From: Ardenticatenales bacterium
GTDB taxonomy: Bacteria; Chloroflexota; Anaerolineae; Epilineales; Epilineaceae
Reading direction: 5' to 3'
Length of the DNA: 64,000 bases
Assembly: GCA_020853525.1 (NCBI GenBank)
Contig: JADYYS010000036.1
Location: 1 to 64,000, forward strand
The notes beneath the pieces are model-generated. The model worked only from the letters and a program-made list of their open reading frames with translations, was not told where the DNA came from and ran no database searches. Of this stretch, positions 59,803 through 64,000 are shown in pieces (the stretch's first letter is position 1; each line of letters begins with the position of its first letter). The translations under genes were made by a program, and so were the position numbers.

Positions 59803-62800
59803 TCATCGCCCGCCGCCGAGCCGCAGTGCTGTCGGGAAGAACGCTTCGAACGGCACGTCCGTCCCGACGTGCAGGCGCGGCCCGGTGTGTGACGCGGCGA
59901 AGTCGACGCGCAGCCAGCCGCCCTCGTGGCCCAGTTCGCGCACGCCGTCGAACGCCCACGGCCGGCCGGAGCCGATGAGGGGCGGCATGCCGAGCGGCGC
60001 GGACACCGTCGCCCCGCCGACCGCCGACACGCTCAGCCGGTGCGCGCCGGCCCAGCCGCCGACCCGCCGCTCCGCCCGCACCGCGAACCCGGTGGCTCCT
60101 GTACCCGACGCGGGCGCAAGCCCATGCCAGTCGAGGTCAAGTGTCGCTGCGCCGAACGCTGCCACCGGACCGTCGAGCAGCGCACCGTCCCGGTAGATGC
60201 GGACGTTCCACGCGGCCGGCGGGCGCGAGCCCAGCGCCGTCACGTGCGAACGCCACGGATCCGCCGCCCAGAGCGTGCTGTCCGCCCCGAAGGCAAGCCC
60301 GGCGGCGCGCACAATGCCCGTGCCGGGCGGACCGTCGCCGCCCCAGGCGCCCAGGAACCGACCGTCCCGCGACACGGCGACGATGCGGGCCGTGATCCCA
60401 TCGGCGATCCGGAGCGAGCCGTCCGGCGCGACCGCGATCCCGACGGGTTCCTTCAGCCCGGCTCCCGGCGTCGTCGTGTGGTCGACGGCGCCCAGCACGT
60501 TGCCCTCCTGGTCGTAGTGGACCGCGCGCAGGTTGCCCGTGTCCGCCACCCAGAGCGTGCCGTCCGGCGCGGCGGCGAGGTGGCGCGGCTTGTACAACCG
60601 CACATCGCCCGGCCCGACGCGCCACTCCGCCTCGAACGTGCCGTCCCACGCAAAGCGCACGATGCGGTGGCCCACGGCATCGGCGACGAAGAGCCGCGTT
60701 CGACCGTCCGGTCCGGCCGCGACGGCGACCCCCGACGGCGACGTGACGTGGCCGGGCGCGTCGGAGAGGCGACGCCAGACCCGGCCGATGCCGCCGTCCG
60801 GCCGGAGGCGGTAAACGGCCGGTCGGAAGCCGGCGCTGGCGATCCAGAGGCCGCCATCTTCCGCCGCCGCGACATCATATGGGCGCGGGTTGGGCGTCCC
60901 GTCCGCCGTGTCCGTCTCCGGCACGCTCCAACCGCGCCGAATGACGGTCCGCTCGTCCGTCTCGAGTACGACCAGCTGAGCATCGTAGAACGCGAACAGG
61001 TACGTGCCGTCCGGCCGAAAGTCGATCGAGTTCGCGGACGTATGAATGATCGGGAACGGGATCGACTCGAGCAGCGTCCCGTCCGATGCGAACGTGATCA
61101 CCCGGCCCTGGTCGGCCCCCGCGGGCCTCCTGGTAACCACGACGACGACGCCGTCCGGTCGGACACCGATCCCCTCCGGCTGGCCAACCTTCGGCACGCC
61201 GAACACGTCCGCGCCGAACGCCCCGAGCGTCCCCCCGTCCCGCGCCAAGCGCACGACGCGCGCGGGCGCGATGTCGATCACGAGCAGCGTCCCGTCCTGC
61301 GCCACGGCGAGACCGCGCGGCTCGGCGATGCTCGGATCCAGCGCGAGCGTCTCGATCACCGTCCCGTCGCGCCGCAGCCGGACGATGCGCCGTGCCGGCA
61401 CCTCGAGCACCAGGACGTCCGCTCCGTCCGCGACGAGCTCGAGGCGGTGCGACCACTCGAACCGAAATTGGTAGGAGCCGATCTGCTGCGGCGCGAAGAT
61501 CCCCGCGGCCCACACTTCGGCCGCCGTGCCGTCCTCCCGCAGCCGCACGATCCTGCCCCGCTCGTTGTCCGCCACGAGGCACGTGCCGTCCCCGAGCGGG
61601 AGGAGCGACACCGGCCGAAGGAGGTCGTCGTCCTTCGCCCGAGGCACGCCCCAACTCCGCCCAAGCCCCCCGTCCGCCTCGACGAGCCGCGCGAGCCCCG
61701 TGCCCGCGTCGGCGACCACGACCCCGCCACCCGGCGCCGGCTCAAGGGCCACCGGGCGCACGAGCCCGTCGCCTCCCGATGCGGGCACCGGACCAGTGCG
61801 CAGCGGCCCGCCGTGGCGGTCGAACCACGCGAGGCGCCCGCGGCCGGCCTCGGCCACGACGACGCCCCCGTCGACGGTCGATGCGACCGCGACCGGCTCG
61901 TCGAGGCCCCCGCCGCCCGGCTGCGCCAGCGCGTCCGCCGTCCAGGTGCCGAGCCAGCGCCCATCCGGTGCGAGGACGGTCACGCCGGGCCCGTCGCCGG
62001 CCACGATCAACCGTCCGTCCTGCGCGACGGCGATGCGTCGGAAGTGGATCATCGACCCACCGGACGCTGCGGGGCCGCCGAAGCCATGGATCGGCAGTAG
62101 GGAAGCTGTGCCGTCGGTCGCGTAGCGATGGATGTACCCACCGATCCCACCGTTGTCGCTGTCCACGGCGTAGATCTCGCCGTTCGGCCCGCCGGCGATG
62201 CCCGTCGGCTGACATCGGTCGTCGTACTTGAGCCCGCCGAACGGCACCCCACCGGAGAAGCACAGGCCGAACTCGCCGGGCTTCTGTGTACCCGGGGCAA
62301 CAGACTTGCCGAGCGTGCGCACCACCGCGCCGAGGCCGTCGAGCACCGCGGCGCGCCCAAGGGTGGGCTGGGCGGCGACGAGCCCGTCGCCGAATGGCGC
62401 GAGGTCGCCGGCCGGGCCGGGCCAGTCGGCCAGCCGAGCTCCCGCGCCGTCGAAGATCCGGATCGGCTCGGTCGCGAGCGAGACCGCAACTCTGCCATCC
62501 GCCAGCACCGCGAGGCCCCATGCATACCCCTTGGCCGGGTCGTCGCCCGGCGCGCCCGCCGCGGCGCCGGGCGTCGTCGGTGATAGCACGCAGATCCGGT
62601 CGACGAACGCCCCCCAAGCCGTGAAGCGCTGCACCCGTCCGTTCGCCGGGTCCGCGACATATACGTCGCCGTTCGCGCCGACCGCCAGCGCCGTGGGACC
62701 ACAGAGCGTTTCGCCGTCGGCGTCTCTCCTGCACCCGGCCCCGAACTCGCCCGGCTGCCACCCCGGCCCACCCCACACGCCGATCACCTCGCCGGACGCG

Positions 62801-63105
62801 GCGAAGCGGACGATCCGCCAGCGGTCCTGGTCGACGACGTAGGCCGTGCCGTCCCGCCCGAAGGCGACGGCGCCCGGCCGGGTGAGCGGTGCGGTTGGAC
62901 TCTCGGCGCCGATGTGGCGCACGTAGTGCTGTTCCAGTCCGCTGCCGTCCGCCACAGGCCCTGCCGCGGGCTGCGCCGCGACAGGGCGGGCCCCGGACGC
63001 GACGAGCGCCGCGAACGCCACGGCGGCGGCCACGGCTGCGGCGCGTGCGGCGCCGGCGCGGCGGAGGAAGGTGCTCACAGGGCGGGCGACGGAGTGGCGA
63101 TGCAT
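59803..63105 (-). CDS. Secreted NHL-repeat beta-propeller protein
   Basis: 1100 residues from the ATG at 63105 (AAGGAA 7 nt upstream; an ATG at 63126 adds seven residues). A signal peptide (about 20-45) is followed by many NHL-type repeats (about 65-960), each ending in patterns such as VYVADPANGRVQRF, LRIADGITARIVAV and LFVADAVGHRIVRF; about three propellers' worth of blades are present. The C-terminal part (about 980-1100) is beta-rich and ends AFFPTALRLGGGR, a variant of the Leu-Pro motif. Such propellers bind ligands or proteins, but no active site can be named. It is followed by the isomerase gene. Confidence 0.85.
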   Translation of the reverse strand: MHRHSVARPVSTFLRRAGAARAAAVAAAVAFAALVASGARPVAAQPAAGPVADGSGLEQHYVRHIGAESPTAPLTRPGAVAFGRDGTAYVVDQDRWRIVRFAASGEVIGVWGGPGWQPGEFGAGCRRDADGETLCGPTALAVGANGDVYVADPANGRVQRFTAWGAFVDRICVLSPTTPGAAAGAPGDDPAKGYAWGLAVLADGRVAVSLATEPIRIFDGAGARLADWPGPAGDLAPFGDGLVAAQPTLGRAAVLDGLGAVVRTLGKSVAPGTQKPGEFGLCFSGGVPFGGLKYDDRCQPTGIAGGPNGEIYAVDSDNGGIGGYIHRYATDGTASLLPIHGFGGPAASGGSMIHFRRIAVAQDGRLIVAGDGPGVTVLAPDGRWLGTWTADALAQPGGGGLDEPVAVASTVDGGVVVAEAGRGRLAWFDRHGGPLRTGPVPASGGDGLVRPVALEPAPGGGVVVADAGTGLARLVEADGGLGRSWGVPRAKDDDLLRPVSLLPLGDGTCLVADNERGRIVRLREDGTAAEVWAAGIFAPQQIGSYQFRFEWSHRLELVADGADVLVLEVPARRIVRLRRDGTVIETLALDPSIAEPRGLAVAQDGTLLVIDIAPARVVRLARDGGTLGAFGADVFGVPKVGQPEGIGVRPDGVVVVVTRRPAGADQGRVITFASDGTLLESIPFPIIHTSANSIDFRPDGTYLFAFYDAQLVVLETDERTVIRRGWSVPETDTADGTPNPRPYDVAAAEDGGLWIASAGFRPAVYRLRPDGGIGRVWRRLSDAPGHVTSPSGVAVAAGPDGRTRLFVADAVGHRIVRFAWDGTFEAEWRVGPGDVRLYKPRHLAAAPDGTLWVADTGNLRAVHYDQEGNVLGAVDHTTTPGAGLKEPVGIAVAPDGSLRIADGITARIVAVSRDGRFLGAWGGDGPPGTGIVRAAGLAFGADSTLWAADPWRSHVTALGSRPPAAWNVRIYRDGALLDGPVAAFGAATLDLDWHGLAPASGTGATGFAVRAERRVGGWAGAHRLSVSAVGGATVSAPLGMPPLIGSGRPWAFDGVRELGHEGGWLRVDFAASHTGPRLHVGTDVPFEAFFPTALRLGGGR

Positions 63106-63193
63106 GGCGTCTTCCTTGCGGGACATATGTGGGCGATGCGGTTCGGAGGTGGCGGTCCGCCGATCGATTCCGCCGCCTCCGCACTGGACACGG

Positions 63194-63234: not shown

Positions 63235-63852
63235 TCAGGTGCTCGACGGCGGCGCCTGCAGCGGCGCCCCGACGATCTCCCACGCCCGCACGAAGTCCTC
63301 CGGCTCGATCCCGAGCCCATCCGCGATCCGGTTGATGTAGTTGAAGTAGCCGATCACCTGCGCCGCGTCGTGCACGCCCGCGTCGCCGAACCCCGCGGCC
63401 CGCAGCGCTGCCACGTCATCCGCCGTCATCGCCCCCGGCGTGCGCGTGAGCTTGTCCGCGTAGGCGCACAGCGCGGCGTCCGGCGTGGCCAGCGGCGCGG
63501 TCCGCCAGTCCATGGCGACGGCGTTCACGTAGGCGTCGGCGTCGGCGGCCGACAGCCCGAGGTCCGCTTCGACCTCGGCACGGAGGTCGTGGGCGTGGGC
63601 CCGCGTTCAGTAGAGGCACTGGTTCAGGCGCGAGACGACGCACGCCAGCATCTCGCGCTGCGAGCGCGTGAGGGGCGATGGGCCGAACATGATGGCCCCG
63701 TAGAAGCGCATCGAGGCCTGCAGCGCGCGCGCGTTCTGGCTCATCAGGCTGACGATGTGCCAGATCCGCCCAGCCCGCGACATCGCCGCGTCGTACTCGG
63801 CCTTGAGCAGCCCTTCGGCCTCGTCGTGGCCGATGACCTCGATCCACGGCAT
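63235..63852 (-). CDS. AhpD-like peroxidase-related selenoprotein (CxxU)
   Basis: 205 residues if the in-frame UGA at 63607-63609 is read as selenocysteine. The family motif E-x11-C-x2-C-x3-H is present as E67, C79, Sec82, H86 (SQREMLACVVSRLNQC, then LY, Sec, TRAHAHDL), so only the second redox Cys is replaced. Both halves share one frame with no other stop. The C-terminal half (KLTRTPGAMTADDVAALRAAGFGDAG) fits the carboxymuconolactone decarboxylase/'peroxidase-related enzyme' family. These reduce peroxides or disulfides through the CxxC pair; Sec would raise reactivity. A hairpin fitting a bacterial SECIS begins 17 nt after the UGA. The alternative is a TGC-to-TGA nonsense mutation. It follows a probable MarR regulator by 18 nt. 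Confidence 0.8.
63570..63589 (-). promoter_or_regulatory. Candidate bacterial SECIS hairpin
   Basis: On the minus strand CGACCTC, loop CGTGCC and GAGGTCG form a perfect 7-bp stem. The UGA ends 17 nt before the stem and 24 nt before the loop, within the usual 16-37 nt window, and the loop has G at position two, as bacterial SelB-binding hairpins require. Confidence 0.65.
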
Positions 63853-63870: not shown

Positions 63871-64000
63871 TCAGGCGTGGCGTGCGTTGACGGCGTTCGC
63901 CGTCGCGCGGTCGAGGGCCGTCGTCAGGCGCGCGGCGTCGTGTTCGGTCAGCGCGCTGCCGAACAGGTCGGCGACGCTCGCCGCATACACCGGCCATGCG
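63871..64000 (-). CDS. C-terminal fragment of a probable MarR-family regulator
   Basis: The last 43 codons of a reading frame that runs off the window (stop TGA at 63871-63873). The fragment contains AWPVYAASVADLFGSALTEH and LTTALDRATANAV, resembling the dimerisation helices at the end of MarR regulators, which often control neighbouring redox genes. With only the C-terminus, the call is tentative. It lies 18 nt upstream of the AhpD-like selenoprotein gene, consistent with an operon. Confidence 0.4.
   Translation of the reverse strand, partial: AWPVYAASVADLFGSALTEHDAARLTTALDRATANAVNARHA

Follow-up and report, generated by a model that had tools for sequence, protein, structure and literature searches.

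A study of 2005 described AhpD-like selenoproteins with a C-x-x-U motif from the Sargasso Sea, 27 sequences assigned to COG2128 (PMC1088965), and in a table from the GOS survey the group 'AhpD-like 1' stands fourth in number with 299 sequences (PMC2398784). A catalogue published in 2026 lists an AhpD-like selenoprotein under TIGR01926, with the CxxU motif and the entry MCB9421940.1, and identifies the related family AhpD_rel_CFYUT (NF041238) with hypothetical protein 1 of the Sargasso Sea metagenome (PMC13188914). For the catalogued AhpD-like selenoproteins, bacterial SECIS-like structures are reported downstream, as is the case for the gene described here. The kind of protein is therefore already known, having been catalogued since 2005, and the statement in the initial annotation of this DNA that AhpD-like selenoproteins were familiar from surveys is borne out by what these three sources report. 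A search of the literature on selenoproteins together with Anaerolineae returned no paper on the AhpD-like family as judged by title or opening abstract, and among papers naming TIGR01926 the sole one on selenoproteins was the 2026 catalogue (PMC13188914).

The window analysed here is a stretch of 64,000 nucleotides at the start of a contig of Ardenticatenales bacterium. On its minus strand, positions 63852 to 63235 form a reading frame of 205 residues that begins with ATG at 63852, contains a single internal TGA at 63607–63609 and ends in a further TGA at 63235–63237. Translation confirmed the earlier reading of this frame as open but for one TGA. Profile comparison likewise upheld its assignment to the AhpD-like proteins: the product scores 130.3 bits over residues 2–186 against TIGR01926 (peroxidase-related enzyme), for which the curated cut-off stands at 81.8 bits, making it a member of that family, and it matches the Pfam CMD model with 35 bits (cut-off 23). 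By model and motif it can be likened to the catalogued COG2128/TIGR01926 selenoprotein, with which it shares the family model and the CxxU, the host in the present case being a Chloroflexota draft genome. It also has a related domain and the CxxU in common with AhpD_rel_CFYUT, yet its score of 80.6 bits against NF041238, over model positions 152–339 of 357, falls below the cut-off of 175 and it is not a member of that family.

The internal TGA lies at the second cysteine of the motif E-x11-C-x2-C-x3-H, as had been claimed; the frame reads C79-L-Y-U82 there and retains both E67 and H86, so that the active site E-x11-C-x2-C/U-x3-H is present in full. In an alignment of 26 rows, this catalytic column 82 is Sec or Cys throughout, Cys79 (codon 63616–63618) and His86 (63595–63597) are invariant, and Glu67 (63652–63654) is at least 90% conserved; Glu67 and His86 are putative proton-relay residues. 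The five relay residues described for Pseudomonas aeruginosa PA0269, namely Glu36, Cys48, Tyr50, Cys51 and His55 (PMC3141380), map onto E67, C79, Y81, U82 and H86 at a constant offset of 31. Following the same source, Glu67 is the counterpart of PA0269 Glu36 and of Glu118 in Mycobacterium tuberculosis AhpD, and, going by the family C-x-x-C described there, Sec82 would stand where structures of the 6k40 type have their second Cys (PMC3141380).

An AlphaFold2 model calculated from 29 sequences, with Sec entered as Cys, is all helical and has a mean pLDDT of 95.3. Foldseek comparison of the model with the PDB placed 6k40 from Deinococcus radiodurans first, with TM scores of 0.80/0.88, followed by 3c1l, 2oyo, 2pfx and 2prr, and a profile search put the same five structures on top. 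They have the same fold as the window protein, at 24–33% sequence identity over 182–192 columns. We take 6k40 to be the AhpD-like protein of the D. radiodurans mutant study that is considered below.

The TGA is not peculiar to this genome. In 400 genomes of the phylum, searched at E ≤ 1e-20, there are 33 matches in 30 genomes, 23 of them with an in-frame TGA and 10 without a stop; the ten stop-free matches were fetched and have Cys at that codon, and seven of them are included in the 26-row alignment. A set of 396 genomes of the class, which overlaps the phylum sample, gave 104 matches in 81 genomes, 97 with the TGA and 7 without a stop. Ten of these 97 have further stops inside the matched span, one of them having five stops in all. 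In the TGA loci that were read, 20 from the phylum sample, 27 further ones from the class sample and another 19 fetched together with the Cys form L180, C-x-[Y/F]-U always has the TGA as its fourth codon. A scan of public contigs found 238 relatives, of which the best 80 were kept, and every one of the 80 has its TGA at this position; by their record titles these 80 include Chloroflexi/Anaerolineae, Gemmatimonadetes, Latescibacterota, Calditrichia, Deltaproteobacteria and SAR324. Some genes are counted from both sources, as with loci L050 and L079, which are 100% identical over 3582 bases; L050 comes from a genome (G426) of the same family as that of the window. A relative search with the single window protein as query returned no relative. 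The initial annotation had thought that a CxxU form in this lineage would be of interest; the CxxU form is real, but it is the usual state among the relatives found and not special to this genome. Its further argument, that conservation of the downstream half speaks against a dead gene, holds and can be widened, both halves being conserved in the 26-row alignment.

Downstream of the UGA, positions 63589 to 63570 of the minus strand can form a hairpin in which a perfect stem of 7 bp, with arms CGACCUC and GAGGUCG, closes the 6-nt loop CGUGCC (63577–63582), whose second nucleotide is G and whose third is U. The hairpin starts 17 nt and the loop 24 nt after the UGA, and folded alone it has an energy of −10.5 kcal/mol with a z-score of −3.45. 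The constraints given for bacterial SECIS elements in the legend to Fig. 2A of the 2026 catalogue are a loop of 3–9 nt, an upper stem of 4–16 bp, a G among the first two nucleotides of the loop, a distance of 16–37 nt from UGA to loop and a minimum free energy of −7.5 kcal/mol or below (PMC13188914). The window hairpin, with its loop of 6 nt, stem of 7 bp, G at position 2, distance of 24 nt and energy of −10.5 kcal/mol, lies within all of these limits.

Taken by itself, nevertheless, this hairpin is weak evidence for a SECIS element. In the GC-rich setting of the window, a hairpin of at least 7 bp with a loop G follows 119 of 1160 TGAs (10.3%), counting all frames on both strands. A 53-nt fold of the window RNA contains the SECIS hairpin with a z-score of only −1.81, and a competing hairpin (63555–63580, minus strand) reaches −16.5 kcal/mol alone as against −10.5 kcal/mol for the SECIS; in folds that extend further in the 3′ direction this stronger hairpin captures the SECIS 3′ arm. 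When 54-nt segments are folded, the SECIS stem is part of the minimum-energy structure in 27 of 32 relatives, the window's own locus being among the five in which it is absent (the others are L051, L052, L054 and L062). An Rfam search of 63400–63750 gave no SECIS match, returning one weak and irrelevant hit (E 2.2) away from the hairpin. Single-sequence folding was thus rejected as insufficient proof of a SECIS, on account of the z-score, the chance rate and the competing hairpin. The earlier description of a 7-bp, 6-nt hairpin that fits a SECIS 17 nt downstream is correct as to geometry, but as an argument from one sequence it is weaker than was stated. What places the hairpin beyond chance is that the TGA is found in 80 of the 80 relatives kept and that the stem is conserved far past what codon usage would give.

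Selection on the hairpin was assessed in the group to which the window gene belongs, with 32 loci from the genome searches and 80 from public contigs, 112 in all. One was dropped because it contained N, and de-duplication left 94 distinct 60-nt sequences; these are mutually related, so that counts among them are not counts of independent events. The 6-bp core of the stem is fully paired in 91 of the 94 (the exceptions are L073, L108 and L127). By comparison, when synonymous codons were drawn 2000 times from the remainder of each gene, 10.5 sequences were paired on average and never more than 21, and sliding the 3′ arm by 1–3 nt in either direction left none of the 94 paired. RNAalifold applied to the relatives returned the SECIS hairpin and no other.

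The codons of the hairpin are restricted in a corresponding manner. Leu90 is CTC (background 30%) and Glu93 is GAG (background 49%) in every one of the 94 sequences, and Arg91 is CGT in 50 and CGG in 44 and never CGC, which has a background of 51%; with codon 91 confined to CGT and CGG, the G of the loop has U or G as its 3′ neighbour in 94 of 94. Codons 89 and 94, moreover, covary: the four distinct sequences with ATC at codon 94 (L057/L110, L063, L065 and L118) all have GAT at codon 89, a compensatory change from the GAC–GTC pair of the rest that goes with Val → Ile, and two sequences combine GAT with GTC through a wobble pair. The search pattern HAHDLRAE overlaps the hairpin stretch and could favour its amino acids in the 80 contig loci; among the 32 loci found without this pattern, 31 are paired and all 32 have CTC and GAG. 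We conclude from these comparisons of related sequences that the hairpin is under selection.

The initial annotation held that the host must encode the Sec machinery, and the absence of this machinery, named there as evidence that would tell against a selenoprotein, is not what we find. The host genome, a draft of 4.27 Mb that is 96.85% complete, carries selA (537.5 bits, contig C31), selB (325.5 bits, C44), selD (361.9 bits, C30) and tRNA-Sec (68.3 bits, C26; called SeC by ARAGORN). The selD gene (C30:144400–145326, minus strand) is itself of the Sec type, with an in-frame TGA in C-A-G-U. A Pfam CMD search of the host genome gave two loci with one TGA each, the window gene and C53:34418–34669. 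The latter belongs to a second AhpD-like gene (minus strand; 1273–1812 of locus L158) that has its in-frame TGA in N-C-F-F-U and scores 87.2 bits against TIGR01926. With the window gene, the C53 gene and selD each containing a TGA, the apparent Sec genes of the host number three or more. Across genomes with the TGA form, selA was found in 19 of 20 from the phylum sample (the exception is G188) and in 63 of 71 further genomes from the class sample; the nine of 91 that gave no selA match are all drafts, 67–91% complete. This co-occurrence is only weakly informative, because 322 of the 400 phylum genomes carry selA.

These observations bear on how the TGA is read. Were it an ordinary stop, the locus would be a dead gene or would encode two pieces, of 81 residues and of 97 residues from an internal GTG at 63528. 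Both pieces do exist as open reading frames, and a comparable hairpin follows 10.3% of the window TGAs by chance, but the conservation of both halves, a TGA placed identically in all 80 relatives kept as the best of 238, the selection on the hairpin and a host with Sec machinery make this very improbable. A change of TGC or TGT to TGA in sequencing or assembly might be imagined in a draft of 76 contigs; the identical TGA, however, recurs in numerous further assemblies whose titles name several phyla, and we regard such an error as the least probable of all the readings, with a negligible chance of being right. Decoding of the UGA as some other residue, either Trp as in code 4 or through near-cognate readthrough, would account for a frame that is open on either side of the TGA. 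Against it, TGA also terminates this gene and the adjacent MarR gene, the position aligns with a catalytic Cys and not with Trp, and tRNA-Sec, selA and selB are present, so that it ranks below even the ordinary stop in probability. On the comparative evidence of the conserved TGA and the selected hairpin we rejected a pseudogene, an ordinary stop, a sequencing error and a changed code, and the first three can be considered practically excluded by the sequences compared.

A different question is what the selenoprotein does. Sec could be inserted as proposed, with the AhpD/CMD fold serving a different redox function, such as that of a reductase of a specific partner. This fold also houses the debrominase Bmp8 and the sestrins, and the gene neighbourhood is not conserved. 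The closest solved relative, on the other hand, is 6k40, and a D. radiodurans mutant in an AhpD-like protein is reported to be more sensitive to H2O2, with C-x-x-C variants restoring much less (PMC8945050); for PA0269 the reduction of H2O2 is described as weak (PMC3141380). Another redox role is in our estimation unlikely, while deserving far more weight than any of the readings without Sec. Overall, we are highly confident that the locus encodes one 205-residue AhpD-like selenoprotein, with Sec inserted at the UGA at 63607–63609 by the host machinery and the hairpin, and with a likely part in peroxide and thiol redox defence, a role assigned by analogy. Sec insertion is what we infer from the presence of the machinery genes, together with a UGA that is conserved and a hairpin that is under selection.

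By this mechanism, SelD would make the selenophosphate with which SelA turns seryl-tRNA-Sec into selenocysteyl-tRNA-Sec. The charged tRNA would be delivered to the ribosome at the UGA by SelB, itself bound to the hairpin at 63589–63570. Sec82 would then replace the second Cys of the C-x-x-C in the predicted all-helical protein, where Glu67, Tyr81 and His86 would form the proton relay. In work on M. tuberculosis AhpD the second Cys is reportedly the attacking one. By analogy, we propose Sec82 as the attacking selenolate and Cys79 as the resolving thiol. Most likely the target is a peroxide or an oxidised partner and a Sec82–Cys79 selenenylsulfide forms, which a cellular thiol system would then reduce.

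The adjacent upstream gene, which shares the frame of the AhpD-like gene, codes for a MarR-family regulator (63871–64332 on the contig, minus strand), and the window includes its 3′ part, 63871–64000. Its terminal TGA lies 18 nt before the AhpD-like gene. The two genes may be co-transcribed, and one might speculate that the regulator controls its neighbour. A tblastn search with the MarR protein at 1e-4 did not find it in the 111 other loci, some of which have short flanks; the protein matched the window's own locus alone among the 112 and the notion of a conserved MarR–ahpD unit was rejected. Just downstream of the AhpD-like gene, a protein of 1107 residues with NHL repeats (Pfam NHL) is encoded at 59803–63126 on the minus strand.

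More distant AhpD-like Sec genes differ in the placing of the hairpin. Counting the UGA as nucleotides 1–3, so that the window hairpin starts at 21, their best simple hairpin begins at position 14 or 15 in 9 of 15 and 13 of 19 loci and at 13 or 16–27 in the remainder, and it often resembles ACGGAG-GGN-CUCCGU. The usual position in these groups is thus about 7 nt closer to the UGA. A quick tree built from 63 proteins puts the window protein in a set of 27 rows, all with Sec, and within its clade Sec looks near-obligate as judged from these sequences. The tree calls for four Sec/Cys changes, its long branches making deep placements unsure. One Cys form, L180 (G479:C153:8975–9684), is the sister of a Sec form, L170 (G497:C56:33566–34279), with an SH-aLRT value of 99. 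The L180 codon is TGT and the 21 nt across the hairpin are identical to those of L170, in a pair of genes with 72% identity across 536 columns. A recent change from Sec to Cys seems to have left a remnant SECIS here, and the TGT could alternatively be a one-base assembly error. In genome G479, which is 87% complete, there is no selA match and tRNA-Sec is found with 70.3 bits; given this tRNA and the incomplete genome, loss of Sec decoding in G479 was dropped as an explanation.

Standard gene calling would split Sec genes of this type or label them broken, so that a Sec redox enzyme is easily missed in drafts of Chloroflexota, Gemmatimonadota and similar groups. The clade-wide pattern of TGA and SECIS may be undescribed so far as our literature search, which was not exhaustive, extends. 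For the clade as a whole, spread over Chloroflexota, Gemmatimonadota, Latescibacterota and others, we put forward a broader proposal whose chances we judge to be evenly poised: that Sec is effectively obligate, that a near-invariant SECIS has frozen the sequence HAHDLRAEV, with pairing accompanied by Val → Ile in 4 of 94 sequences, and that related groups use a hairpin some 7 nt nearer the UGA. The clade offers an unusually clean data set on how a bacterial SECIS constrains its codons and on whether Sec can be lost again. If the proposal is true, the AhpD-like family would be a natural record of the trade-off between RNA and protein constraint in one run of codons.
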